This document shows, piece after piece, positions 9,281 through 62,019 of a DNA stretch of 64,000 nucleotides. Within the stretch, counting starts at the first letter, position 1; every line of letters starts with the position of its first letter. The stretch lies in contig JAFGUB010000027.1 of assembly GCA_016938735.1 (NCBI GenBank), positions 1 to 64,000 of the forward strand, read 5' to 3'. The position numbers and the translations under genes were made by a program. Source of the DNA: Campylobacterales bacterium. GTDB taxonomy: Bacteria; Campylobacterota; Campylobacteria; Campylobacterales; Sulfurimonadaceae. Below the pieces are notes generated by a model, which was not told the origin of the DNA, searched no databases, and was given only the letters and a program-made list of their open reading frames with translations.

Positions 9281-11875
9281 TTAGAACAGGTTGGCGTTCT
9301 CATCGATCCACTTGAAGTATTCGATGATATCTTTAGACTGTTGCGGCGACATGTTCTGGTTAGGCATGCGCAGGTTGAATGAGTTGATCATCGCCTCGAT
9401 ATAAGGGTTTTTGTAATGTTTTTCAGGGTTAAGAATAAAGTCATAGACAAACTGCTCGCCGTTTTCATGACGCATCAATACGCCGGTGAGGTCTGGGCCT
9501 GAGCTGACTTTACCGACGACGTGACAACCTGAACATCCGCCCTCATGGAAGGCTTTCTCACCGGCCGCTGCGGCAGGCGACATTTTGGTAGCCACCATCT
9601 TGGTGAGGATATCCTTGGCGCGGATACCGACGTCGGCAGTTTTAACCATGTACTGCCAGATCATGTTTTCAAAAAGAACCGCTTTTTCAACATCGCCCGC
9701 TTTGTAGGCGGCGTCAGCTTTTTTCTTCTCATCGGGGATCTTGCCGTACTGATCAAGCGCATCGACGACAAGGTTTTTAACAGTGTCATGCTTCTCGTAA
9801 TGGTTCTCTTTGAGGAATTTCACGACGGATTGAATAACGGCATCGGTGGCGGCATTGACGCCGACGATCTTTTTGTACTCCGCTTCAAGCTGCTCCGGAG
9901 TCATACCCGCCATTTTCATCTTCGAGACGTCTTCATACTTTTTGTTGGGGTCTTTGACCATCATATAGCCCATCATCTCGAGGTGCAGCGCGGAGCAGAA
10001 CTCGGTGCAGTAGAACGGGAATACCCCTTCAATGTCAGCGATAAACTCGATTTTGGCGGTTTCGCCCGGCTCAAGTGAAGCGTGGATATCGTAGCTGCCG
10101 ACCGTAAAGCCGTGGGTCTCATCCTGGGCACGCTCCAGGTTGGTCATGTAGATCGTAACCTTGTCGCCTTTATTGACGGTGATGTGCTCAGGATTGATGT
10201 GTGAGCGTACAAAGGTCGAATAGACGGTGACATGGTTGCCGTTACGTTCAACACGCTCTTGACCGGCGAGGGTTTTGCCTTCGTGCACCTTGCCCGTTTT
10301 GGGGTTGGTACCCATCTCATAACGGACATGCGGATGGACTTTACTCGCACGAATCGACTCTGCCTGATGCGGTTCACCCAGCGGGAAAGGCATGTCGTAG
10401 AGCAGCTGCATCTTGGGCCCTGAAATATCGATGAGCTGGTGGTTCTGCGGATGCAGCGGACCTACCGGCAGGAAACGGTCAATCGCAAGTTTATTGAGCG
10501 CAATCAGGTATTGACCCTGCGGATCGGCTGATTTGCCCTCCATCGCGGTGAGGTGTCCGATGTTGTAGTGGACATTGACCTTATCAAGCACCTTCAGATC
10601 TTTATAGTTCCACTTCACCACCTGTGAATCGACATAAAGCGAGGTATAGACTTCGCCGTCTACGTTGGAGTACTGGTTGTGCAATGGCCCCAGACCCAGC
10701 TCAAGCTGACCGTGTAGTGATTTTTTCATATCCAAAATGGGGATGCCGTAGGGATCTTTACCCGCATATTCTTTATTGTCAATGAGCTTCTTGATTTTTC
10801 TAAAGTCATAAACCGAAGCGTGGGTATCGAGTTTACCGCAGACAATGATCAGTTCACCCGTGGGGTTGACGTCTACACCGTGGGGCGATTTGGGCTCGGG
10901 GATCAGGAAGAGCGCGTCGTTTTTGACCGCGACGTCGATGGGGATCACCTTGTGGCCGTTAATCAGCTGATAGTTCTTCTTGTCTTTAGCCAGTTCGGCG
11001 AGCTTCTTCCAGTTGTATACATGTAAGAAGTCGGTGTCAAATCGGCTCATCCCCGCTTCAAACGGCGGCAGCCCTTTTTCGATGCCGCCTACGTACATTT
11101 CGGCGTTGAAAGAGTTGGTAAAGGCCCAACCGTCCGAGACACCCTTACCGGCATCGGTGAGGTCTTGCATATACGGCGGCAGCTCCAGCGTAAAGGCTTC
11201 GTCGGCCTTGATTTTGCCCGCTTTTTTATCAAACGGCCAGTGGGTTACGCCGCCACGGTACTTCTCTTTGTAGAGTTCGATAGGATAGTAGTTGTTATCC
11301 AAAGGGGCGGCGTATTGGCTCGCTTCGAGGATAAAGTCGGTATTGGGGGTAACAAAAGCGCCGCCGTGTTCGGATTTGAGTACGGGGTTCACAACGATCT
11401 GGGTGGTCTCAAAGTCGGCAAGACTAATGACGGCGATACGTGGATTGGCCTTGTCATTGATAAAGAGAAACTTACCATCACTCTTACCATCAGTCTCGGA
11501 GACGGCGGGGTGGTGGGTATCGCCCCAGTTGATCTCGCGTCCACGGATGTTGCCCTGACGCAAGATCGCCTTAGAGTCCTCATCGTAGCCATAACCCTGC
11601 CACGGCTCCGGGGTAAAGACGGCAATATACTTGAGGATACGCATCGAAGGCACCCCATAAACAATCACCTGACCCGATTGGCCACCCGATGAGAAGATGT
11701 AAAACTCATCATGCACACCCGATGGGGTATAGGTTTTGGCAGCGGCGAGCAGATCGGTCTCACTCAGACCGCGCTTCTTCATCACCTCTTGCAACTCATT
11801 GGCCTCTGCACCGATCCCCAGCAGCGCTAGGGCAGCGCAAGAGTAGACCACTCTTTTTAAACGACTTGGCTTCAT
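9281..11875 (-). CDS. nosZ: NosZ, nitrous oxide reductase with fused cytochrome c
   Basis: An 864-residue clade II (Sec-type, atypical) N2O reductase: N2O + 2 e- + 2 H+ to N2 + H2O in the periplasm. The N-terminal signal is a Sec peptide (KRVVYSCAALALLGIGAEA) rather than Tat. A seven-bladed propeller with the His ligands of CuZ follows, then the cupredoxin domain with the CuA motif CTEFCSALHLEMM, and finally a C-terminal cytochrome c domain with CSGCH near residue 781 and LRMPNQNM, as in Wolinella cNosZ. First gene of the operon, preceded by a Crp/Fnr box at -41.5. Start supported by AAGGAGA. Confidence 0.97.
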   Translation of the reverse strand: MKPSRLKRVVYSCAALALLGIGAEANELQEVMKKRGLSETDLLAAAKTYTPSGVHDEFYIFSSGGQSGQVIVYGVPSMRILKYIAVFTPEPWQGYGYDEDSKAILRQGNIRGREINWGDTHHPAVSETDGKSDGKFLFINDKANPRIAVISLADFETTQIVVNPVLKSEHGGAFVTPNTDFILEASQYAAPLDNNYYPIELYKEKYRGGVTHWPFDKKAGKIKADEAFTLELPPYMQDLTDAGKGVSDGWAFTNSFNAEMYVGGIEKGLPPFEAGMSRFDTDFLHVYNWKKLAELAKDKKNYQLINGHKVIPIDVAVKNDALFLIPEPKSPHGVDVNPTGELIIVCGKLDTHASVYDFRKIKKLIDNKEYAGKDPYGIPILDMKKSLHGQLELGLGPLHNQYSNVDGEVYTSLYVDSQVVKWNYKDLKVLDKVNVHYNIGHLTAMEGKSADPQGQYLIALNKLAIDRFLPVGPLHPQNHQLIDISGPKMQLLYDMPFPLGEPHQAESIRASKVHPHVRYEMGTNPKTGKVHEGKTLAGQERVERNGNHVTVYSTFVRSHINPEHITVNKGDKVTIYMTNLERAQDETHGFTVGSYDIHASLEPGETAKIEFIADIEGVFPFYCTEFCSALHLEMMGYMMVKDPNKKYEDVSKMKMAGMTPEQLEAEYKKIVGVNAATDAVIQSVVKFLKENHYEKHDTVKNLVVDALDQYGKIPDEKKKADAAYKAGDVEKAVLFENMIWQYMVKTADVGIRAKDILTKMVATKMSPAAAAGEKAFHEGGCSGCHVVGKVSSGPDLTGVLMRHENGEQFVYDFILNPEKHYKNPYIEAMINSFNLRMPNQNMSPQQSKDIIEYFKWIDENANLF

Positions 11876-33298: not shown

Positions 33299-34498
33299 AT
33301 GCAGCGTAGAGAATTTTTCAAAAAATCATTCGCCGCCGCTTCGGCGCTCGCCCTTGCCGATACACTCGGCGCAAGCGAGACCCGACAACCCATCGACAAC
33401 CGCAAAGTTTCATCCATCGCCTTCCCCGAAAAGCGACCGCTGATCACCTATTCCGACCGTCCGCCGCTGCTTGAGTCGCCGCGCGAGACCTTCAGCCGCG
33501 CCATCACCCCCAACGATGAATTTTTCGTACGCTGGCACATGCCTGAAATCCCTACCCACATTGATCCGGCCACTTATAAAATTCACATCAACGGTGCGGT
33601 AGAGCGCGAACTGCACATCTCGCTTGATAGCCTCAAACTAGACTTTGAACAGGTCGAAGTAACCGCCGTACTGCAGTGTGGGGGTAACTCCCGCTCCGCC
33701 TTTACCCCGACCGCCGGAGGTATCCAGTGGGGGCATGGTGCGATGGGCTGTGCCAAATGGAAAGGGGTCCGTCTGCGCGATCTGCTCAGCCGCGCCGGAC
33801 TCAAAAAAGATGCCGCGTGGATCGGCTTCAACGGCCTTGACAATGCCGCCTACTACGAAACACCCAACTTCGTGCGCGAAATGCCGCTTGAAGATCTCGA
33901 CGACCACGTGATCGTCGCTTATGAGATGAACGGCGAGGATCTGCCCTATCTCAACGGCTACCCCCTGCGCCTTGTTATCCCCGGCCACTACTCCGACAGT
34001 TGGGTCAAGATGCTCAGCAACATCACCGTCACCACGGAGTATCAGAAGCTCTTTTTTATGGACGTGGCCTACCGCGTCCCCGATAACGACTGCGAGTGCG
34101 AAACCCCCGAAAACCGCTTTAAACCGACCAAGCCCATCACCACGATGAACGTCAAATCGATCATCGGCTATCCCACCAACAACACCATCGTGCATCACAA
34201 CACCCATCTGGTCGTGCGCGGCGTCGCGTTTGACGACGGCCACGGTATCCGCGACGTACTCATCTCTACCGATGGCGGCAAAACTTGGGGCACTGCGCTG
34301 CTTGATAAAGATGCGGGGCGCTACGCCTTTCGCGCTTTTCGCTACGCGATCAAGCCTACCAAAATGGGCAAACTCACCATTATGGCCAAAGCGATCAACC
34401 GCCTAGGTGCGGAGCAGCCCTTCGCCCACGAGATCAAGTGGAACCACGGCGGCTACAAATTCAACGGTATCGACGCCGTCACCGTCGAAGTGATCTAA
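33299..34498 (+). CDS. sorA: Sulfite dehydrogenase molybdopterin subunit, SorA-like
   Basis: A 399-residue protein of the sulfite oxidase family with a Tat-like leader (QRREFFKKS). The Moco-binding domain has the ligand Cys 127 in VLQCGGNSRS, followed by GIQWGHGAMG and the C-terminal Mo-co dimerisation domain (GVAFDDGHGIRDVLIS). SorA oxidises sulfite to sulfate in the periplasm and passes electrons to the cytochrome SorB encoded next. SoxCD-type or YedY-type assignment is less likely given the pairing with a small cytochrome. Confidence 0.88.
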   Translation: MQRREFFKKSFAAASALALADTLGASETRQPIDNRKVSSIAFPEKRPLITYSDRPPLLESPRETFSRAITPNDEFFVRWHMPEIPTHIDPATYKIHINGAVERELHISLDSLKLDFEQVEVTAVLQCGGNSRSAFTPTAGGIQWGHGAMGCAKWKGVRLRDLLSRAGLKKDAAWIGFNGLDNAAYYETPNFVREMPLEDLDDHVIVAYEMNGEDLPYLNGYPLRLVIPGHYSDSWVKMLSNITVTTEYQKLFFMDVAYRVPDNDCECETPENRFKPTKPITTMNVKSIIGYPTNNTIVHHNTHLVVRGVAFDDGHGIRDVLISTDGGKTWGTALLDKDAGRYAFRAFRYAIKPTKMGKLTIMAKAINRLGAEQPFAHEIKWNHGGYKFNGIDAVTVEVI

Positions 34499-34508
34499 GG
34501 AGCCGCCC

Positions 34509-34817
34509 GTGAAAATTCTATTAACCGCCCTTGTACTCACCGCTTCTGCCTTGATGGCTCAGGTCAACGAACCGGTCGAAGTCCCCTATATCGCCTACGA
34601 GATCAAAACCGGCAAAGGCTTCGACGCCGTCCAAGCCAACTGCCTCACCTGCCACTCTTTTGGCTACATCATCAACCAAGGGCCCCAAGCACGCGCCTTC
34701 TGGCTTGAAAAAACCGTCAAAATGGTAGACGCCTTCAAAGCCCCCATCACCCCCGAAGATGTGCAGAGCATCGCGGAGTACCTCTTCACTTACTACGGCA
34801 ACGGCGAGGAGAAATAA
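34509..34817 (+). CDS. sorB: Small cytochrome c subunit, SorB-like
   Basis: A 102-residue cytochrome c with a signal peptide (to ~LMAQ) and heme site CLTCH followed by SFGYIINQGP; WLEKTVKMVDAFKAP and the final YLFTYYG are typical of the SorB/small sulfite dehydrogenase cytochromes. GTG start ten bases after sorA with AAGGAG upstream, so a two-gene operon. Confidence 0.88.
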   Translation: MKILLTALVLTASALMAQVNEPVEVPYIAYEIKTGKGFDAVQANCLTCHSFGYIINQGPQARAFWLEKTVKMVDAFKAPITPEDVQSIAEYLFTYYGNGEEK

Positions 34818-34901: not shown

Positions 34902-37334
34902 ATGAACGTCGTGATCGTCGGCGGCGGTATCGTCGCGGCCTATATGGCCAACCGCCTCAAAGAACTCGCTCCCCGCACTCAGGTGCAAATCATCTCCGAT
35001 GAAGCCTATCCCCCTTATGACCGCATCCACCTCTGTGCGCTCGTGAAGCGCGAAAAGAGCATCGATGAGATCAAACTTCAACTCCCTCCTTCGGTGGAGC
35101 TGATCCTCAACCAGCCCATCACCCACATCGACGCAGCGGCTAAAAAGGTCTTCTCCGCTGATACCCAATACCCCTACGACATCCTCGTCATCGCCACCGG
35201 CTCCAAGCCCAAAGCGCTCTTTGACATCGAAGGGATCGAGAATGCCGCCACCTTCAGAAGCGCCGGGGATAGCTGCAAGATCGAACACAATATGGTCGGC
35301 AAAAATGTCGTGCTGCTGGGAGTGGGCCCCATCGGGCTGGAGCTGCTCGATACGCTGAGCGAAATGAGCGGACCCAAAAGCATCACCCTACTCTCACGCG
35401 GCAACCACCTCTACGCCAAAGAGCTGACCGCACAAGCCGTGCAGCTCATTGAGCACACCTTTACCAAAAGTGATAGCCGCATCCGCATCCGATACAACGA
35501 CGAGATCGTCGATCGGGTGGTTGAGGGCAACCGCATCGTGCGCGTCCAAACCCGCAGCGAAACCATCGAAGACCCCTTTATCGTCTTTGGGGTGGGGATT
35601 GATCCCAATATCGATTTTGTACGCCATGAGCTTACATGTAATAAAGGGATTTTGGTTGATCGCTACATGCGCAGCTCCGATCCGCACATCTACGCGGCCG
35701 GCGAAGCGGCGGAGCTGAGCGAAAGCGGCTTTGTGGCAGGGCGGGTCAAAGAGTGTACCCTCGAAGCCGACGCGACGGTGGCCTCCATCTTGGGCTTTGA
35801 GCATGAGGGCTATGTGCATGAAGTGGCGCTAGACGGGCTCAAAGTGGGCAGTTTCCTACTTGCCGACGTGACCGCGCCGCACTATGTGCACAAGCATGAG
35901 GAGAACGAAGACATCGTCATCAGCTCGCGCAAAGAGCGACGGATTGATCACTACATCGTCAACAACGACCATCTGGTGCGCTTTATCGGGCTCAATACCA
36001 ACATCGACCTCCTCGCGCTTAAGACGATGATCGAGAAAAACACCAAAGTCGATGCATCATTTTTCTACGACAACCGCCTTGTCTCTGAGCGCGGCAAGCT
36101 GGTCTGTAGCTGCGCAAGTACCTATGAGCAAGACCTCATCGACCTCATCAAAGAGAACGCCATTACCGATTTTACGGGGCTAAAACCCTTTAGCGAAGCG
36201 GGACGCGTCTGTGGTCGCTGCAAGCAAGAGATCAGCCGCATCATCGAAGCTACCCCCGTCGATCCCGAAGAGGCTGCCCGCATCCGCGCCCAAAAAGAGC
36301 GCGCCGCGCGTGAGGCCGAGATGGCACTGGTGCAAAAGCGCATCGACAAATACAACGCCCTGCACCCCGCCAACCCGCTCGACACCGCCAACCTCGACGT
36401 CGCCATCAAGAGCTTTGACATGAACCGCGAATATAACCGCTGGGTCTCCATGATCACCTCAAGTATGCGCTTGCACCCCGATTACGCACCGCTGGTAGAT
36501 CAAAGCGTCGCGCAGCTCAACAAGATCCCCATCATCTGGCTGGAGCTCTCTGATTGCACCGGCAACTCCGAGGGCTTTATCAAAGCCGCGCATCCTAAAG
36601 TGGACGATCTGATTCTCAACTACATCTCGCTGGATTACCACGAACTGCTGATGGCCGCTTCGGGCGATCAGAGCGAACACGCCCTTGATGCCATCTTAAA
36701 AAACGACGCCGGACGCTACATTCTGCTCGTCGAAGGAGCGGTGCCGCTGGGGCTTGAGGGCAAATACTTGCGCATCGGCCCCAAAGGCGAAACGGGGCTG
36801 GAGCTGCTGCGCCGCTGCGCCAAAGATGCGGCAGCCGTCTTCTCCATCGGAAGCTGCGCACTTGATGGCGGTGTGGTAGCCGCCGCGCCCAACCCCACGC
36901 AGGCCGTGGGCGTCGCCGAAGCGCTGGGTAGGGCCGACATCATCAACCTTCCGGGCTGTCCCGTCAACCCCATCAACATCGTCGGCACCCTGCTGCACTA
37001 CATTATGTTTGATGAGCTTCCCGAATTGGATGAAAAAAACCGCCCCAAATGGGCCTACAGCTACCGCATCCACGACAACTGCGAACGACGCGGCCACTAC
37101 GAGCTTGAAGAGTTCGTACTGGAGTGGGGCGATGAGGGAGCCAAAGCGGGATGGTGTCTCTTTAAGATGGGCTGTAAAGGCCCCTACGCCGACCTCAACT
37201 GCTCGCTGGTCAAATTCAACGAAGGCACCAGCTGGCCGGTACAAGCAGGGCACGGCTGTATCGCCTGCGGCGCGGGCAAGATCGCGTTTGACAAACTCGC
37301 CAACCATCGAATGGTAGAGACAGAGGAGTCTTGA
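34902..37334 (+). CDS. Flavoprotein-BFD-[NiFe] hydrogenase small subunit fusion
   Basis: An 810-residue three-part protein. Residues 1-~380: NirB-like FAD/NAD(P)H oxidoreductase (VVIVGGGIVAAYMANRL; second nucleotide site VVLLGVGPIGLE; IYAAGEAAELSE). Residues ~400-445: BFD-type [2Fe-2S] site with Cys 402, 404, 437 and 440. After a charged helical linker, from ~545: hydrogenase small subunit with Cys 552 in CTGNSE, SIGSCALDGG, LPGCPVNPINIVG, CLFKMGCKGP and GCIACG. There is no Tat signal, so it should be cytoplasmic. In CTGNSE the second proximal-cluster Cys is Asn, as in cyanobacterial HupS (group 2). The fusion implies direct electron flow from H2 through 2Fe-2S to a flavin. AAGGAG precedes the ATG. 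Confidence 0.88.
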   Translation: MNVVIVGGGIVAAYMANRLKELAPRTQVQIISDEAYPPYDRIHLCALVKREKSIDEIKLQLPPSVELILNQPITHIDAAAKKVFSADTQYPYDILVIATGSKPKALFDIEGIENAATFRSAGDSCKIEHNMVGKNVVLLGVGPIGLELLDTLSEMSGPKSITLLSRGNHLYAKELTAQAVQLIEHTFTKSDSRIRIRYNDEIVDRVVEGNRIVRVQTRSETIEDPFIVFGVGIDPNIDFVRHELTCNKGILVDRYMRSSDPHIYAAGEAAELSESGFVAGRVKECTLEADATVASILGFEHEGYVHEVALDGLKVGSFLLADVTAPHYVHKHEENEDIVISSRKERRIDHYIVNNDHLVRFIGLNTNIDLLALKTMIEKNTKVDASFFYDNRLVSERGKLVCSCASTYEQDLIDLIKENAITDFTGLKPFSEAGRVCGRCKQEISRIIEATPVDPEEAARIRAQKERAAREAEMALVQKRIDKYNALHPANPLDTANLDVAIKSFDMNREYNRWVSMITSSMRLHPDYAPLVDQSVAQLNKIPIIWLELSDCTGNSEGFIKAAHPKVDDLILNYISLDYHELLMAASGDQSEHALDAILKNDAGRYILLVEGAVPLGLEGKYLRIGPKGETGLELLRRCAKDAAAVFSIGSCALDGGVVAAAPNPTQAVGVAEALGRADIINLPGCPVNPINIVGTLLHYIMFDELPELDEKNRPKWAYSYRIHDNCERRGHYELEEFVLEWGDEGAKAGWCLFKMGCKGPYADLNCSLVKFNEGTSWPVQAGHGCIACGAGKIAFDKLANHRMVETEES

Positions 37335-37594
37335 TGCCTGAGATCAGCCGCTTTTACGGCATCAAAATTTTGATGTTTTACGATGAGCACAATCCGCCGC
37401 ACTTTCATGTGGAATACAATGAACATAAAGCTGTGATCCGTATCGCCGACTTGGCCATCACTGAGGGTACACTCCCGCCAAAAGCGGCTGCTTTGGTTGT
37501 AGAGTGGGCCTTGGCCCATCAAGACGAACTGCGTGCAGACTGGGATCTGGCGCAAAGCAACCAAAAACCGCATAAAATAGCACCGTTGTATTAG
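37334..37594 (+). CDS. DUF4160 protein
   Basis: An 86-residue DUF4160 protein (PEISRFYGIKILMFYDEH, PPHFHVEY). ATG 37334 overlaps the TGA of the hydrogenase fusion; a TTG one codon earlier is also possible. DUF4160 and DUF2442 often form an adjacent pair suggested to be toxin-antitoxin-like. Its location between hydrogenase subunit genes, with overlapping stops and starts, means it is co-translated with them. Confidence 0.8.
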   Translation: MPEISRFYGIKILMFYDEHNPPHFHVEYNEHKAVIRIADLAITEGTLPPKAAALVVEWALAHQDELRADWDLAQSNQKPHKIAPLY

Positions 37595-37602
37595 GAGTGT
37601 TG

Positions 37603-37851
37603 ATGCATTATTTAGTAAAACACGCACACTATCTTGGAGATTATAAACTTCACATCGAGTTTAATGACGGTCACAGCGGTACCGTCGATCTCTCATCGTA
37701 TCCAAAGCGCGGCGGAGTCTTCGCACCGCTTCATGATCTTGCCTTGTTTAAGCAATTCCAACTCAACGGCTGGACGATTGTCTGGGACGATGAAATCGAT
37801 ATCGCCCCTGAACGTCTCTATGAACTTGCCATCTCAAAGGAACACCAATGA
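37603..37851 (+). CDS. DUF2442 protein
   Basis: An 82-residue DUF2442 protein (YLVKHAHYLGDYKLHIEF, WTIVWDDEIDIAPERLYE). ATG 37603 is preferred over GTG and TTG just before it because AGGAG (37593-37597) is at proper spacing. Its TGA overlaps the ATG of the hydrogenase large subunit as ATGA. Partner of the preceding DUF4160 gene. Confidence 0.8.
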   Translation: MHYLVKHAHYLGDYKLHIEFNDGHSGTVDLSSYPKRGGVFAPLHDLALFKQFQLNGWTIVWDDEIDIAPERLYELAISKEHQ

Positions 37852-39539
37852 ACCAAAAAATCGTCATCGACCCCATCACCCGCATTGAGGGGCACCTCAG
37901 AATCGAAGTCGAAATCGACGACAATGGCGTCGTACAAGAGTCATGGGCGTCGGGGCAGCTCTTTCGCGGGATTGAGACCATCCTCAAAGGGCGCGATCCG
38001 CGCGACGCGGCGCTGATTGCGCAGCGTATCTGCGGGGTCTGCACCAATGTGCACTACCGCGCCTCGATTAGCGCCGTCGAAGATGCCTACAAGATCATCC
38101 CGCCGCACAACGCGCAGATCATCCGCAACCTCGTCACCCTTTCGCTCTTTGTGCAAGACCATATCGTGCACTACTACCATCTGCACTCGCTGGATTATGT
38201 GGATGTGGTCTCTGCCCTCTCGGCCGATCCGCACCTTGCCAGCGAAGAGGCCAAAAAGTACCACCCCAACCCCTACCACTGCTCACGCGGCCACCTTGAA
38301 GCGGTCAAAGAGAAGCTCACCAACTTCGTCAACGCCGGAAGGCTGGGGCTCTTTGCCAACGGTTATTGGGGGCATAGCGCTTACAAACTAACGCCGGAGC
38401 AGAACCTGCTGCACATGAAAAACTACCTCACGGCGCTGCGCATCCAGCGCGAACTCTCACAGGCCGTGGCCATCTTCGCGGGCAAAACCCCCCACCCGCA
38501 AAATCTGGTCGTCGGCGGGGTCACCAGCGTGGCAGATATGCTCAACCCCCAGCGGCTTAACGACTTTATGTTCATCATCAAAGAGACCCGCGACTTTATC
38601 GAGCGCGGCTATCTGCCTGACATGACAATGATGGTAGATGCCTACCGCGAAGAGATCAAACGCGGCGACGGACGCGCCATGGGCAATTTCATGGCCTGCG
38701 GCGGCTATCTGCTGGGAAGCGGCGAAAAGCTCTTTGAGGGCGGCGTGATCTACAATCACGACTTCTTACATGTAAAGCCTTTTGATGAGCGCAACATCAC
38801 CGAAGAGGTGGGCCGATCATGGTATGTCGGCGATGCACCCAAAGGGCCTTATGAGGGGAGTACCGAACCCTTTTATACCGATCTCAACGATGACGGCACG
38901 CTCAAAACCGAGGGCAAATACACCTAGGTCAAAGCGCCGCGCTACGGCGGCGTGAGCATGGAGGTGGGGCCGCTCTCACGGATGCTCATCGGCTATCTTA
39001 AAGAGTCCAAAATCATCAAGCCCTATATGCAGCGTTTTATGGACGCAACGGGACTGGAGCTGCTTGACTTCTCTAGTACCGTCGGACGCAACGCCGCGCG
39101 CGCCATCGAAGCGCAGATCTGCTGCGACTATATCTTCAGCTTTATGAGCGATATGATCGAAAATATCAAATACTACGACGAAACCACATGGACCAAATAT
39201 GACTTTGCCGCCCTGCCCCAAGAGGCCAAAGGGCGCGGATTGTATGAGGTACCGCGCGGCGTGCTGGGGCACTTTGTCAAGATCAAAGAGGCCAAAATCG
39301 AAAACTATCAAGCAGTCGTGCCCACCACATGGAACGCTTCGCCCAAAGACGCCGCCAATCAGCGTGGTGCCTACGAAGAGGCACTCATCGGCATTCGCTT
39401 GGCTGATCCCAAAATGCCGCTGGAGGTGCTGCGCGTCGTACACAGTTTCGATCCCTGTCTGGCGTGCGCCGTACACATCATTGACACCAAGGGCAAAGAG
39501 CTTGCGCACTACCGCACAGAGGCGGCTTGTGCACTTTAA
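37848..39539 (+). CDS. [NiFe] hydrogenase large subunit, interrupted by in-frame TAG
   Basis: A 564-codon frame with one internal TAG at 38925-38927 (codon 360). Upstream: EGHLRIEVEI, L1 motif RICGVC and the NPYHCSRGHL region. Downstream, in frame: VKAPRYGGVSMEVGPLSRM, ending with L2 motif DPCLACAVH plus a 20-residue C-terminal extension that a maturation protease would remove. Large subunits normally read K-Y-S/T-W before the KAPRY segment, so TAG stands where Trp (TGG) is expected. Both nickel-binding ends are intact, and without readthrough only the 359-residue N-terminal part (37848-38927) is made and the enzyme lacks L2. An internal GTG/ATG (38952) could start the second half. No maturation genes lie in the window. 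Confidence 0.85.
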
Positions 39540-56766: not shown

Positions 56767-59292
56767 CTACTCAAGTATCTCTATAAGATTCGAGGCTTCC
56801 ACTAAACACAAAGTAACGCGCAGATCAGGCTCATCAAAGAGAAATTGCCGCATCACACCCAATGCGCTGTCAAGATCATCAAAAGCCAAAACAAAATCGT
56901 CTCCATGAATGCGAAAAACCTTTTCAGGCTGCATCCATTCGTATACATGTAAAGCGATCTCCCTGATTTTTCGGCTTCCCGCTTTCCAGCCGAAGCGCTG
57001 GTTGTACGCACCCATCCCCTTAATTTCAAGCAACACCAACTGCTTAAAGGGCTGCTGTGCGGGGGGATCTAACAGCAGCATCTTCAAATAGACTTCGTTG
57101 TAGGCTCCAGTCAGCGGGTCTTTAAAAAAATAGGCCAAACGCGCGTGCTCCATAGGGGTGAGCGGCAACTGAGAGCTCAACTGATCCCCTGCAAGCAGAT
57201 GCAGTGCCGATGCCGCCGCATCGACGACATTTGGATGGTACCAAACACCCCGATACTTGATGATCTCGTCAATCGCTTCACGCATGCTGCGGCGCGGCTG
57301 ATAGATTCGGTTGGTCGTCATCGCGTCGATGGCGTCACAGACCATCATAATCTGTGCCGGCAAGGATATTTCGCCCCCTTTGAGCCCATCGGGATAGCCG
57401 CTGCCGTCATATTTTTCATGGTGCTGCCGGATGATTTGCGCAAGCGGACGAAAGTAGGCAATTTTGTGCAGCATTCGAAAACCGGTCATCACATGCTCTT
57501 GGATGAGTTGATACTCCTCTTGGCTCAGTCTGCCCGGTTTGAGCAAAATCACATCAGGAACCGTCACTTTACCGATGTCGTGCAGTACCGCCGCCTCATG
57601 TAGCAATGCCCTAGTCGAACGATCAAGCTCCATAGCCTCCGCAATGATGTCGCAGTAGTTCGCTACACGGCGGGTATGTCCGGCGGTATAAGCGTCGCGC
57701 CCTTCGATGAGCTCGATGAGCCCTTCAAGCAGCTCGGTATAGTGGCGATGTTTCTCCTCTTCCAGCGCGGCGATCTGCGCCTGCTGCAGACGGGTTGTAA
57801 ACTGCGCTTCAAAGCTCTGCGCCGCATGTTCCATCGTCACCGCAAAAAGCGGTGCAAACTCAATCTCAACTTTTACCCAATCACTCGCCGTATAACGTAC
57901 CGTCTCTCTATAGGCTTCAAAAGAGGTACGCGGGGAGATCCCTCCGCGCGCGTTGAGAAACCCTTTCTCGTTCGGATTGCCGCCCCATGTCAGCGTTAGG
58001 CTCTGCTCGCGGCGGATCCAAAGCCAATAGATGCTCTCGGGTTTGCGCGTATGAATCAGCATCATCCCGGCAAACTGCTCATGATACCTTGTAGGCAGAT
58101 AGGGAAGCAGCGCATGAAGACTTGAGGTATGCCAATATCCCTGCTCAAGATGCGGCTCTATAAATCCGATCAGCGCGTCGATCTCTTCACGCCCGACCTC
58201 CAGTCCCTGCGCATAAAAAGCGTCATGGGCACATACAACAAAACCGTCCGCAGGAAAAAGCGATGCAAAAAGCCCCGCATGGTGGATTGCGGAGGCGACA
58301 AAAGAGGGATGCAGCGATCCTCTTTGCATATACTCCGAGAGCGTTTCAAGGCGTACATGTAACTCTGCTTTTCGCTTTTGCTGTTGCATTTCGATTCGGG
58401 CCTGCAACAGCGCACTAAAGATCTCGCCAAAGGTCTCCGCCATCGCCACCTGACGCATTGAAGGAGAAAACGCGACGCTGTTGTGACAGGCGATCAAACC
58501 CCAAAGCCGCCCCTCAACCAGTAAAGAGACGGTCATCGAGGAGCACACCCCCATGTTGTGCATATACTCGATATGTACGGGTGAAACGCCCCGCAGGTAG
58601 CTATAGGTCATATCCAGCGGACCCAGAGTACCGCCGCGCCAAAAATCAACCGGATGGTGATAAGCGTCGGCAATCACGCGAATGGAATTTTTGCGAAACA
58701 GTTCACGCGCCTGGGCAGGAATATCCGATGCCGGAAAGTTAAGCCCCAGATACGACCCCGCCTCAGCATCGCGGCTCTCGGCAATGACACAGCCGTTATA
58801 CTCCGCATCAAAGCGATAGACCATTACCCGCTCGTATCCGTTAAAACGGCGCAACTCTTCCACGGCGCGCTGACACATCGTTTCAATCGTAGGCGCGGCA
58901 CTGATCATCTGCGCACTATGACCCAGCAAGGTCTGCATACAAACGTGCTCTTGCGACGCGCTTGAGGGCACACACTCTAACAAGAGCTCATCACCGCTGC
59001 GCGTTACGATCATATCGAGCATCTCATCCGCCAAAGCGCTCAAGCGAAGTGCGTATCCCATATGCTTGCGCGTCTGAGGCTTCGTTAGCCACTGCTCCAG
59101 CATCATACACACCTCATCACCAAGCAGCTCACGAAGCGATGTTCCAATGGCTGCTTTGGAGGCGATGTTGGCACTCACTCCGCTAATGCGCCACGAATCG
59201 ACCTCAAATGAGAGTGCCCAGCCGTGCGGCTGAATCAGCCCTGGAATATGGATCGGCTCACGTTCACACAGCGAATAGTCAATCGGTACCAC
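56767..59292 (-). CDS. bphP: Bacteriophytochrome with HD-GYP and degenerate GGDEF output
   Basis: An 841-residue photoreceptor. PAS domain with the biliverdin Cys 9 in CEREPIHIPG and QPHG; GAF domain (~130-310) with the ASDIPAQAR motif and PHY domain with the WGGNPNEKG and PRTSFEAYRE tongue. Output: HD-GYP at ~520-690 (AGHTRRVA, HDIGKVTVPD, HHEKYDGSGYP), then a GGDEF remnant with IHGDDF that should not make c-di-GMP. So red/far-red light could control c-di-GMP hydrolysis. GTG start overlaps the heme oxygenase gene, which would supply biliverdin. Ends in TAG. Confidence 0.9.
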   Translation of the reverse strand: MVPIDYSLCEREPIHIPGLIQPHGWALSFEVDSWRISGVSANIASKAAIGTSLRELLGDEVCMMLEQWLTKPQTRKHMGYALRLSALADEMLDMIVTRSGDELLLECVPSSASQEHVCMQTLLGHSAQMISAAPTIETMCQRAVEELRRFNGYERVMVYRFDAEYNGCVIAESRDAEAGSYLGLNFPASDIPAQARELFRKNSIRVIADAYHHPVDFWRGGTLGPLDMTYSYLRGVSPVHIEYMHNMGVCSSMTVSLLVEGRLWGLIACHNSVAFSPSMRQVAMAETFGEIFSALLQARIEMQQQKRKAELHVRLETLSEYMQRGSLHPSFVASAIHHAGLFASLFPADGFVVCAHDAFYAQGLEVGREEIDALIGFIEPHLEQGYWHTSSLHALLPYLPTRYHEQFAGMMLIHTRKPESIYWLWIRREQSLTLTWGGNPNEKGFLNARGGISPRTSFEAYRETVRYTASDWVKVEIEFAPLFAVTMEHAAQSFEAQFTTRLQQAQIAALEEEKHRHYTELLEGLIELIEGRDAYTAGHTRRVANYCDIIAEAMELDRSTRALLHEAAVLHDIGKVTVPDVILLKPGRLSQEEYQLIQEHVMTGFRMLHKIAYFRPLAQIIRQHHEKYDGSGYPDGLKGGEISLPAQIMMVCDAIDAMTTNRIYQPRRSMREAIDEIIKYRGVWYHPNVVDAAASALHLLAGDQLSSQLPLTPMEHARLAYFFKDPLTGAYNEVYLKMLLLDPPAQQPFKQLVLLEIKGMGAYNQRFGWKAGSRKIREIALHVYEWMQPEKVFRIHGDDFVLAFDDLDSALGVMRQFLFDEPDLRVTLCLVEASNLIEILE

Positions 59293-59911
59293 TGAGGATC
59301 TCTTGAAGTCTCAAAAAGAGCGCACAGGCAGCGAGCAGCACGCGGTTGTGCTCTGCCAAGGTAGCATCTTGCGCGTAGCGATTAAGAAAATGGGTATACT
59401 CCCCCCACATGCGCATGGTCTGATCCCCATAAGCACTAAAGTAGCGCATTGCGGGAAGACCGTCGTTGCCAACGATGCTCAGCAGTCTCTGGGCTAAAAA
59501 CCTACCTCCCATCGTCGAACCCTCAAGCACATACATCACACCGACGGCTTCAGGAAAACCCCAACGTTCGTCCCATACGCGCTGCATCGGCGTCGAAGGT
59601 TCCGCCACCCCAAGGGCCGCAAGATCGAGGCGCAGCAGCTCAAGCCGCGCGCGCCGCTCAATATCGATGCCATAATCCGCCCACTGCGCCCACTGCCGCA
59701 CACGCGGTTCAATCACAGAATGCACGACATATAGCTGCGTCAAATAACGCGCGTAATCGCTTCTGCCCACCCCTCCAGAAGCCATCGCCTGTGCCAGTCG
59801 CGTCGATTCCAGAGCATCGTGAAAAGGTGCCGTCATGGTTTTGAGCCGATGGTGAAACGTTGCATCAACAGGTGTCGTCGAACGGTTCATTTCATCGTGT
59901 TTATCGGCCAT
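59279..59911 (-). CDS. bphO: Heme oxygenase
   Basis: A 210-residue heme oxygenase producing biliverdin from heme. Candidate proximal His is His 31 in APFHDALE; GSTMGGRFL matches the distal-helix glycine motif. ATG 59911 has AAAAAAGGAG at proper spacing and lies 17 bases after the previous stop; an in-frame ATG at 59962 would run back over the TACATGTA element and upstream gene. The coupling with bphP indicates BphO function. Confidence 0.9.
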   Translation of the reverse strand: MADKHDEMNRSTTPVDATFHHRLKTMTAPFHDALESTRLAQAMASGGVGRSDYARYLTQLYVVHSVIEPRVRQWAQWADYGIDIERRARLELLRLDLAALGVAEPSTPMQRVWDERWGFPEAVGVMYVLEGSTMGGRFLAQRLLSIVGNDGLPAMRYFSAYGDQTMRMWGEYTHFLNRYAQDATLAEHNRVLLAACALFLRLQEILSGTD

Positions 59912-59928
59912 TTTATCTCCTTTTTTGG

Positions 59929-62019
59929 TTACATGTAAGCCTGTTGCTGACGTGAGCGCCACTGCGCCAAAGGCATCGGCCGATCGATCGCATACCCCTG
60001 CATGGCATCAACGGCATTCTCTTCAAGAAATCGTCTCTGCTCGGCCGTCTCAATCCCTTCGGCGATGCTGACCACCCCGAGCGTCTTAGAGAGCGCCAAA
60101 ATCGACTTAACGATTTTGGCACTGCGTTCAGAGTGCCCGATCGATCTGGCAAACGATTGATCGATCTTGATCATCTGCACATCAAATTCGAGCAGATAAC
60201 TCAGTGATGAATAGCCTGTTCCAAAATCATCGAGCGCAACCGCGACACAGCGCCGGTGCAGCTCTTCGATACGCTGCTTGGCGAGCGGAATATTTTGCAT
60301 CAGCTCGGATTCGACGATCTCGATCACGAATGCCTCTCCACCTAGACCGTATCGCGCCAGCATCTGATCAAATCGTAGCATGAAATCAGGTGCGAACAGC
60401 GTTTGAACGGTTAGATTGACGCTCAGCGAGAAGGGTTTGGCTGAATTGTTGCGAAACGACGCATGCAACTGCGCAGTATGCGCGAGCACCCACCAGTCGA
60501 TCTCAACCATCAACCCGGATTTGGCCGCCGTCGACAAAAATGCTCCGGGCAGCAGCAGGCCTCGCTCAGGGTGATTCCAGCGTAGCAGCACCTCAGCGCA
60601 CGCCATCGCCACATCCGAAATCAGCTCAAAAGGTTGAAAGTAGAGTTCAAACGCTCCGCTCTCAAGCGCTTGTCTGATCTGCGATGACAACAGCAGATAT
60701 TCCTGAGCCATCTGCGTCAGTTCGGGTTTGTAAAAATGGTAACAGTTACGTCCTTCGTTTTTGGAGACGTACATCGCGGCGTCGGCGTTGCTAAGCAGCA
60801 TCTCGGCATGTTCGCCATCTTTGGGATAAAGAGCGATGCCGATACTACAGCCGATGCGGGCCCGAATACCGTTGATCAGAAACGGTACGCTCACTTTTTT
60901 GAGAATCTTCTCGGCCACCTGCGCGAAATGCGCTTCATCGGTACCGTTTTCAATCAGCAATACAAACTCGTCACCCCCGATTCTGGCAATCGTATCGACT
61001 TTGCGCAGCACTTCAACCAGCCGTTGCGACACTTGTACCAAGAGCTGATCGCCGTGTGAGTGTCCAAATGAGTCATTAACCTCTTTGAAGTGGTCAAGAT
61101 CTAGAAAATAGACGCCAAAACCCTCACCGCTGCGTCGCTTGCGCTCGATGGTCTGCTCGATGCGGTCAGAGAGGAGCCGACGGTTGGGCAGCCTTGTGAG
61201 CGGATCATGCAAGGAGAGATGGGAGAGTTTTTGGGTTTCTGCCCGAAGATCCTCTTGAATGCGTAGATAATCAGTCACGTCGTGCGAGATTTCGATGTAG
61301 GCACTGATGGCCCCTTCGTTATCGAAAAGCGGCCGCATATGTACATCCACGTGGCGCTCTTCATTGTGGATGTTGCGCCGGACATGACGCAAGGTCACCG
61401 GACGTCCGTTGCGGTTCACCTGATCGATCGGACAAGGCTGGGCTGTGTTCGGACATGGAGCCGGTAGATTGTAATTAACCTGATGACACTTCAGCACCAC
61501 CGACACTTCGCTTAATCCGCGCTGTAGACGCGCCGCCTGATTCATCATCGACACTGTGTAATCGCGCTCGATGTATAAAATGGGATCTGGGATTTCGTCG
61601 ATGATGGTCTGGATCGTTTCGCGCGAAGCGTGTAGCGCCTCTTCGAGCTGTAGCATGCGCGACGCTTTATGCAGTGCATCGATCAGCTTGCCCGGATCGG
61701 TCGGCTTAAGGATGTAGCTGTCTACATGTAAGTTAATGCTGCGCAGCAGCATCTCCGTATCGCTAAACGCCGAATTGACGATGACGGGCAGTTGGGGATG
61801 GCGTTCGCGGATAGATGCTATCATGTCCAAACCGCTCATCCCCGGTAGTTGCAGATCACTAAGCACCAGATCGGGGCGGTGCATCTCAAAAAGCCGCAAC
61901 CCCTCGTCGCCGCTTTGTGCCACATAGACTTTTTTAAAACTCTCCCCAAAGACGTTGACAAAGGCTTCTGAAGTACGCGGATCATCCTCGACATAGAGAA
62001 TCGTATGGTTTTTAAGCAT
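59929..62019 (-). CDS. REC-PAS-GGDEF-EAL regulator
   Basis: A 696-residue cytoplasmic protein: receiver (VEDDPRTSEA, LVLSDLQLPGMSG with phospho-Asp, K in ILKPTDPG), PAS (~130-250), GGDEF with IGGDEFVLL and EAL with AEVLLRWNHPE and DDFGTGYSS. In the EAL signature position A-E-V-L-L replaces E-A-L, so phosphodiesterase activity may be altered. The stop TAA lies inside a TACATGTA element (codons for AYM then TAA). The start overlaps the upstream kinase by 8 nt. Confidence 0.9.
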   Translation of the reverse strand: MLKNHTILYVEDDPRTSEAFVNVFGESFKKVYVAQSGDEGLRLFEMHRPDLVLSDLQLPGMSGLDMIASIRERHPQLPVIVNSAFSDTEMLLRSINLHVDSYILKPTDPGKLIDALHKASRMLQLEEALHASRETIQTIIDEIPDPILYIERDYTVSMMNQAARLQRGLSEVSVVLKCHQVNYNLPAPCPNTAQPCPIDQVNRNGRPVTLRHVRRNIHNEERHVDVHMRPLFDNEGAISAYIEISHDVTDYLRIQEDLRAETQKLSHLSLHDPLTRLPNRRLLSDRIEQTIERKRRSGEGFGVYFLDLDHFKEVNDSFGHSHGDQLLVQVSQRLVEVLRKVDTIARIGGDEFVLLIENGTDEAHFAQVAEKILKKVSVPFLINGIRARIGCSIGIALYPKDGEHAEMLLSNADAAMYVSKNEGRNCYHFYKPELTQMAQEYLLLSSQIRQALESGAFELYFQPFELISDVAMACAEVLLRWNHPERGLLLPGAFLSTAAKSGLMVEIDWWVLAHTAQLHASFRNNSAKPFSLSVNLTVQTLFAPDFMLRFDQMLARYGLGGEAFVIEIVESELMQNIPLAKQRIEELHRRCVAVALDDFGTGYSSLSYLLEFDVQMIKIDQSFARSIGHSERSAKIVKSILALSKTLGVVSIAEGIETAEQRRFLEENAVDAMQGYAIDRPMPLAQWRSRQQQAYM
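59930..59937. repeat. TACATGTA element containing a stop codon
   Basis: On the coding (minus) strand the element reads GCT TAC ATG TAA, the last three codons of the REC-GGDEF-EAL gene and its stop, and the following TAACC leads into the heme oxygenase Shine-Dalgarno region. Confidence 0.8.

Follow-up and report, generated by a model that had tools for sequence, protein, structure and literature searches.

Background

The closest described system to the one reported here is a hydrogenase of Hydrogenovibrio crunogenus XCL-2. Hansen and Perner (2016; PMC4744846), citing Scott 2006, describe a Tat-less small subunit of 813 amino acids in this strain and in several Campylobacterota, and the same gene is listed there for Sulfuricurvum kujiense, Sulfurovum sp. 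AR, Sulfurimonas autotrophica, Arcobacter nitrofigilis and Thioalkalimicrobium microaerophilum. HynS/HynL of strains XCL-2 and SP-41 constitute the 'hydrogenase gene cluster I' (Scott 2006 via PMC4744846; PMC6501319), and XCL-2 has this fused hydrogenase but lacks the group 1d and 2b enzymes of SP-41 (PMC4744846, PMC6501319). The fused design is thus already published for sulfur-oxidising bacteria, as a biochemically uncharacterised kind of hydrogenase noted in Thiomicrospira crunogena. No further accounts of the fusion under other names were found in the literature searched.

Here we describe a locus of this kind in a member of the Campylobacterales (family Sulfurimonadaceae). The window, that is, the whole stretch of DNA analysed, comprises 64,000 nucleotides of contig JAFGUB010000027.1. 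Compared with the description in PMC4744846, the protein is of the XCL-2 type: it has about 810 residues, joins a Pyr_redox domain to a hydrogenase small subunit and has no Tat signal. The adjoining group 1-type large subunit contains both characteristic motifs, but is interrupted by a TAG codon in the window. To the published picture we add a BFD domain with invariant ligands, a remnant of the Tat signal, an asparagine ligand shared with another hydrogenase and an NADP(H) motif, as well as a link to a group 4 operon, a broader distribution and the broken partner gene of the window genome.

Results and discussion

The fused protein and its distribution

An earlier note, made from the letters of this DNA alone, had described a single chain composed of an FAD/NAD(P)H oxidoreductase, a BFD-type [2Fe-2S] site and a hydrogenase small subunit. 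All three parts are recognised by profile models above the Pfam cut-offs, in that order (Table 1): Pyr_redox_2 (E 3.5e-37), Fer2_BFD (E 1.7e-8) and Oxidored_q6 (E 7.1e-27), the latter followed by NiFe_hyd_SSU_C (E 9.1e-26). In NCBIfam, TIGR00391 (hydA) covers residues 508-792 (E 5e-108). Pfam showed no second flavin domain in the protein. The NirB model TIGR02374 covers residues 3-453 only, including the BFD region, and reaches 129 bits against a cut-off of 578; this partial match below the cut-off excludes a full-length NirB nitrite reductase with sirohaem/4Fe-4S domains.

Table 1. Features of the fused hydrogenase locus (positions in the window)
Feature	Position	Strand	Basis or remark
Fused flavoprotein-[2Fe-2S]-hydrogenase small subunit (HynS/HydA-like), 810 aa	34902..37334	+	ORF, Pfam, relatives
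FAD/NAD(P)-binding domain Pyr_redox_2, residues 1-271, BphA4/putidaredoxin-reductase-like fold	34902..35714	+	
Ser165-Arg166-Gly167, predicted to determine NADP(H) use; at the end of beta2 in the nucleotide-binding Rossmann fold	35394..35402	+	
BFD-like [2Fe-2S] domain, residues 400-449; Cys402, 404, 437 and 440 invariant	36099..36248	+	
Linker part, residues 495-541, homologous to HydA Tat signal region	36384..36524	+	BLAST
Small-subunit core Oxidored_q6, residues 552-699; proximal ligands Cys552, Asn555, Cys652, Cys686	36555..36998	+	
Asn555 codon, replacing the usual proximal-cluster Cys (CTGNSE)	36564..36566	+	invariant, 81/81
Small-subunit C-terminal domain, residues 719-791	37056..37274	+	Pfam, alignment
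DhiT-like toxin (DUF4160) between the subunit genes	37334..37594	+	TTG start also possible at 37331
DhiA-like antitoxin (DUF2442)	37597..37851	+	overlaps large-subunit start (ATGA)
[NiFe] hydrogenase large subunit, group 1-type, 563 codons if read through	37848..39539	+	interrupted by in-frame stop
In-frame TAG; Trp in sibling G005 and other relatives covering the site (68/68)	38925..38927	+	

The fused protein is encoded in at least 80 other genomes at 52-70% identity. At least 80 loci lie in named genomes, mostly metagenome-assembled genomes and isolates of Sulfuricurvum, Sulfurimonas, Sulfurovum and Hydrogenimonas. Of 121 genomes in the same family, about half have a full-length fused orthologue, and such orthologues also occur in several further families of the same order. 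The order of Thiomicrorhabdus has a fused orthologue in 6 of 63 genomes. The plasmid collection yielded no full-length fused homologue. Full-length orthologues in dozens of independent genomes exclude a frame joined by assembly or sequencing, which the note had named as grounds for rejecting the fusion, and no internal stops were seen in the fused orthologues among the matches listed. It is nearly certain that the fusion is real.

In an alignment of 81 fused sequences, the four BFD cysteines are invariant, as are Cys552, Asn555, Cys652, Cys686, His724, Cys727, Cys752, Cys758 and Cys767; Cys786 and Cys789 vary by gaps only. The BFD cysteines and the CTGNSE motif lie exactly where the note had placed them. 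In the C-terminal domain, His724, Cys727, Cys752 and Cys758 are the distal ligands, and Cys767, Cys786, Cys789 and Pro779 belong to the medial cluster. Conservation across the 81 sequences extends to the glycines of the FAD and NAD(P) sites, the Rossmann glycines G140 and G142 being invariant. Between the window genome and its sibling G005, dN/dS is 0.06 for the large subunit and 0.04 for the small-subunit part; selection on both subunits is purifying. A further cysteine, residue 45 (35034-35036), lies in PYDRIHLC close to the FAD site. It does not vary among the fused proteins (80 of 81, with one gap) and is possibly redox-active.

A remnant of the Tat signal

The N-terminus of the fused protein is an FAD beta-alpha-beta motif, MNVVIVGGG, and it follows that the chain carries no N-terminal signal. 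The region corresponding to the signal is found inside the protein. Residues 478-803 align with the periplasmic HydA of the same genome at 46% identity over 326 residues (BLAST), and the alignment runs straight across the Tat region of HydA: DRRDFMKWASATTAMLMLPSSFTPLV in HydA corresponds to MNREYNRWVSMITSSMRLHPDYAPLV in the fused protein. The aligned fused proteins do not retain the twin arginine, and the region is no longer hydrophobic, the maximum Kyte-Doolittle mean being 0.13 in the linker versus 1.31 in HydA. Tat export, expected of a small subunit of [NiFe] group 1 (HydDB 1b), is thus not indicated for a signal region that is internal, non-hydrophobic and devoid of its twin arginine. The absence of a Tat signal noted earlier holds on both counts, at the N-terminus and inside the chain.

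The linker is what is left of a Tat signal region, and the enzyme therefore goes back to a HydA-like preprotein. The simplest history suggested by the alignment would be that a ferredoxin-reductase-like flavoprotein with a BFD domain became fused ahead of a Tat-dependent HydA precursor, and that the Tat signal subsequently decayed, leaving the enzyme in the cytoplasm. The decayed region lends support to the cytoplasmic location that the note had suggested, and we predict with high confidence that the fused hydrogenase is cytosolic.

Group 1 ancestry and the proximal asparagine

The note had called the small subunit group 2-like; this does not hold. Compared with PDB sequences, the small-subunit part scores about 260 bits against group 1 enzymes versus about 70 against the group 2a enzyme Huc. 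The corresponding scores are 322 versus 96 bits for the first part of the large subunit and 483 versus 188 bits for the intact large subunit of the sibling. In maximum-likelihood trees, the large subunits of the fused systems form a single clade (support 100/100) inside group 1, beside the HydB proteins of Campylobacterota, and the fused small subunits likewise fall inside group 1. The group-2-type hydrogenase of the same organisms clusters in both trees with HupU/HupV, away from the fused clade. Together with the 46% identity to HydA, the PDB scores and the trees of both subunits rule out group 2 membership, and the sequences argue strongly for a group 1 ancestry. The group 1 placement comes from these trees, and the label of subgroup 1b is taken from PMC4744846.

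The asparagine at the proximal cluster is real, as the note had seen. Because one of our scan patterns contained GNSE, Asn555 was rechecked in the loci recovered by whole-protein search, and it is present in 56 of 56 loci found without using the motif. The suggested kinship with cyanobacterial HupS was not borne out, since the periplasmic HydA of the same genome also reads CAGNSE, as does HydA of several relatives including Sulfurimonas paralvinellae, for which H2 uptake was measured (PMC4149538). Asn has also been reported in group 2a and in HupS of mesophilic verrucomicrobia, and group 1f is reported to have either Asn or Asp (PMC5364354). Asn is therefore not diagnostic of group 2a (HupS), because group 1 HydA and group 1f have it too; it is a tolerated ligand change and no mark of a defective or group 2 enzyme. 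The suggestion in PMC4744846 that the clusters might bind improperly is weakened because the same residue occurs in HydA of the H2-consuming S. paralvinellae.

The flavoprotein part and its coenzyme

The N-terminal fold matches putidaredoxin reductase and BphA4. The best matches are the BphA4 mutants E175A/Q/C-T176R-Q177G, with 76.9 bits versus 70.1 for the wild type. According to the substitutions in their PDB titles, these mutants read A/Q/C-R-G at positions 175-177, where the fused protein natively has S-R-G; we take the mutants to have been engineered to favour NADPH. Arg166 is kept in 78 of the 81 fused relatives, and an acidic residue at the NAD-specifying position is almost never seen among the motifs listed. 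In putidaredoxin reductase and MDHAR, Glu at the coenzyme position gives NAD preference (PMC5031999). If the protein is an H2:NAD(P)+ oxidoreductase, this one motif makes a preference for NADP+ over NAD+ fairly likely. In an AlphaFold model of the small-subunit chain without its partner, the flavoprotein-BFD part is confident and the small-subunit part poor (pTM 0.57), so that the inter-domain geometry is not fixed.

The interrupted large subunit

Three features outside the fused gene are unmentioned in the earlier note: the TAG in the large subunit, a DhiTA-like gene pair and the adjacency of a group 4-type operon in relatives. The large-subunit frame of the window contains the RxCGVCT and DPCxACxVH motifs, both conserved in the relatives covering them. 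TAG recoding can be ruled out, since TAG ends 11 of the 46 long ORFs in the window. A natural split of the large subunit is unlikely: the relatives covering the site have Trp, and the downstream GTG lacks an obvious ribosome-binding site. Compared with the sibling, dN/dS is 0.069 before the TAG and 0.047 after it. The latter value speaks against an old pseudogene, and any loss of the large subunit must be recent because dN/dS stays low after the stop. The TAG may be a recent nonsense mutation or a sequencing error. Unless it is an error, an active enzyme would need read-through, and the probability that the hydrogenase is active in this strain is low.

The subunit genes of the sibling overlap by ATGA, and the DhiT/DhiA-like pair is absent there. 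In the window, the small-subunit gene ends in an overlap with the start of the toxin gene (TGATG), and the end of the antitoxin gene likewise overlaps the start of the large-subunit gene (ATGA). This arrangement indicates that the pair was inserted between the subunit genes in the window genome. Two further cases were observed. In locus L064 (12463-21247), a nucleotidyltransferase and an AbiEii-type toxin gene lie between the small and the large subunit, with a gap of 8.8 kb, and locus L113 (15899-16894) has a RhuM gene within a group 4 operon. Hydrogenase operons repeatedly carry inserted genes of the toxin-antitoxin-like type.

These observations bear on the possibility that the whole family, having no Tat signal, cytochrome or proper Fe-S sites, is an inactive relic of which the window copy is already a pseudogene. 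Inactivity was one possibility raised for XCL-2 by Hansen and Perner, and XCL-2 showed no H2 uptake (PMC4744846). The in-frame TAG and the toxin-antitoxin insertion in the window operon, as well as the large subunit lying about 8.8 kb off in one other genome, point in the same direction. However, all Fe-S ligands are conserved, the supposedly defective Asn is shared with HydA of an H2-consuming species (PMC4149538), dN/dS is 0.04-0.07, downstream of the TAG too, and the other relatives covering the TAG site carry Trp. For the family as a whole we consider such a relic unlikely, and a recent loss in the window genome alone is likely. The window is a poor source for enzyme study because its large subunit is interrupted.

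Gene neighbourhood

The large subunit is the next gene in 71 of 81 loci examined. A six-gene group 4-type hydrogenase operon, with subunits matching NuoL/HyfB, NuoH, NuoB, NuoC, NuoD and NuoI/HyfH-like models, adjoins the pair in 10 of 32 fully flanked loci (upstream in 4 and downstream in 6), and the gaps or overlaps between the two are mostly a few bases. It is contiguous with the fused pair, in either order, in loci L069 (4984-9994), L075, L094, L103, L113 and L116. This six-subunit hydrogenase is probably ion-translocating. The gene order suggests a functional link between the pair and the group 4 operon in those lineages, which could possibly supply NADPH and reduced ferredoxin jointly.

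In the genome of the window, the pair stands without such an operon, and no large subunit of group 4 was recognised; a candidate region at C49:5699-7000 proved to be a group-2-type operon. The genome also has Tat-type HydABC and the group-2-type hydrogenase; its periplasmic HydA/HydB copy and a hypD lie on contig C49. The small subunit of the group-2-type hydrogenase carries CNGNT and its gene adjoins a TetR-family gene; this enzyme probably corresponds to HydDB 2d.

Elsewhere in the window, SorAB-like sulfite dehydrogenase genes lie directly upstream of the fused gene (33299-34817). A nos-like cluster includes a nitrous oxide reductase that carries a cytochrome c domain at its C-terminus (9284-11875, minus strand). 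A phytochrome-like photoreceptor (PAS_2-GAF-PHY with HD and GGDEF) is encoded beside a heme oxygenase gene (56770-59962, minus strand), which is unexpected in a probably chemolithoautotrophic member of Campylobacterota. There were no Rfam matches in the window.

Proposed function

In flavoproteins of the BphA4/putidaredoxin reductase type, electrons move between NAD(P)H, FAD and a [2Fe-2S] partner protein. The gene context in Thiomicrorhabdus ZW0627 provides a further clue. Its self-contained operon comprises a NicO-like gene, hypB, C, D, E and A, the fused gene, the large subunit, a hybD-type protease and hypF. It encodes neither a cytochrome b nor any further redox subunit, and this genome yielded no second full-length NiFe large subunit. 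The fused domain is therefore the only encoded electron outlet. The most economical reading is that electrons would flow to flavin and NAD(P), as the earlier note had proposed.

We consider it reasonably probable that the family is a cytosolic two-subunit H2:NAD(P)+ oxidoreductase of group 1 descent, most likely preferring NADP+. The domain content, the conserved cluster ligands, the ancestry, the gene pairing, the Tat remnant and the stop codon are seen directly in the sequences; we infer the electron path, its direction, the NADP preference, the cytosolic location and the physiological role. The NiFe site in the large subunit would cleave H2, and the electrons would pass from the proximal, Asn-ligated cluster through the medial [3Fe-4S] to the distal cluster, and from there via the BFD [2Fe-2S] centre and FAD to NAD(P)+. 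Unless the H2 pressure is very low, thermodynamics favour electron transfer from H2 to NADP+. In Hydrogenovibrio SP-41, homologues of these genes are expressed on H2 (PMC6501319), which counts for this function. Other data count against it: XCL-2 showed no H2 uptake under any tested condition, and SP-41 activity was located in the membrane and not in the soluble fraction (PMC4744846, PMC6501319). The group 1d hydrogenase has been suggested as a possible source of H2 consumption by SP-41 (PMC6501319).

The same chain might also run in reverse, with NADPH or a ferredoxin docked at the BFD domain feeding the NiFe site, as an H2-evolving redox valve. This flavoprotein family normally transfers electrons from NAD(P)H to a [2Fe-2S] partner, and the adjacent group 4-type operon in 10 of the 32 loci could couple H2 production and use. 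Against this reading, besides the thermodynamics given above, Pro779 is kept at the medial cluster, indicating the [3Fe-4S] type typical of uptake enzymes, and homologue expression was highest with H2 as the only donor (PMC6501319). Reverse operation is thus rather improbable.

We give similarly little weight to a route in which the electrons reach the reductive TCA (rTCA) cycle through a ferredoxin or a different carrier protein and the flavin domain serves as an intermediate or docking module, possibly a bifurcating one. For these autotrophs, a supply of the rTCA cycle by cytosolic hydrogenases has been proposed, but for hydrogenases other than this one (PMC4149538, PMC5401914). Against this route, the NAD(P)-binding glycines G140 and G142 are invariant, Pfam shows a single flavin domain in the chain and, apart from the HyfH/NuoI-like subunit encoded in the group 4 operon, no ferredoxin gene was recognised beside the pair. 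A role as cytosolic H2 sensor or as regulator, as distinct from a catalyst of bulk electron flow, is very improbable. In its favour, the protein is predicted to be soluble, and many of these genomes encode energy hydrogenases as well; however, the conserved neighbours include no recognisable kinase or sensor partner, the separate group-2-type operon with its TetR-family gene is a better sensor candidate, and in some genomes the fused system is the only full-length NiFe hydrogenase.

The oxidoreductase proposed above may be extended to a hitherto uncharacterised class of cytosolic, group 1-derived H2:NADP+ oxidoreductase that is co-operonic in some lineages with the six-subunit group 4-type hydrogenase, in a unit making NADPH and reduced ferredoxin, both reductants of the rTCA cycle, directly from H2 or exchanging electrons between the two through internal H2 cycling. 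We put this extension forward as a doubtful, though conceivable, proposal. The function is directly testable: the argument from a defective Asn is weakened, the motif predicts NADPH over NADH, and several genomes have intact genes. At least one such genome combines a complete maturation operon with the absence of any other full-length [NiFe] hydrogenase.

Comparison with known systems

The fused protein resembles HynS of XCL-2 in its N-terminal pyridine nucleotide-disulfide oxidoreductase domain, in the lack of a Tat signal and of cytochrome b, and in the group 1b large-subunit motifs described in PMC4744846. Unlike the XCL-2 type, the window has a TAG in the large subunit and a toxin-antitoxin pair between the genes. 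The available part of the XCL-2 account makes no mention of a BFD domain, a Tat remnant or a coenzyme motif, and calls the Fe-S sites not conserved (PMC4744846).

Among the hydrogenases of the same organisms, periplasmic HydA/HydB (group 1b) is similar in the 46% identity of the small subunits, the equal cluster ligands including Asn, and the adjoining large-subunit clades. The two differ in that HydA is exported by Tat and partnered by cytochrome b, whereas the fused form lacks the twin arginine and has FAD and [2Fe-2S] domains. The cytosolic group-2-type hydrogenase shares with the fused form the absence of a Tat signal and the Asn in the proximal site, but it lies on the HupU/HupV side of both trees and has no flavin domain.

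The fold and the FAD/NAD(P) motifs are common to BphA4, putidaredoxin reductase and the N-terminal region of NirB. In contrast to these proteins, the fused protein has no sirohaem or Rieske partner; a hydrogenase small subunit, joined to the flavoprotein within one chain, takes that place. Finally, the predicted overall reaction, H2 + NAD(P)+, is that of the group 3 NAD(P)-reducing hydrogenases (HoxFUYH, sulfhydrogenases), which use an unrelated diaphorase module and belong to a different NiFe group. If NADP+ reduction is true, the fused enzyme would be an unusually simple H2-driven NADPH generator, made of two group 1 subunits without HoxFU-like parts.
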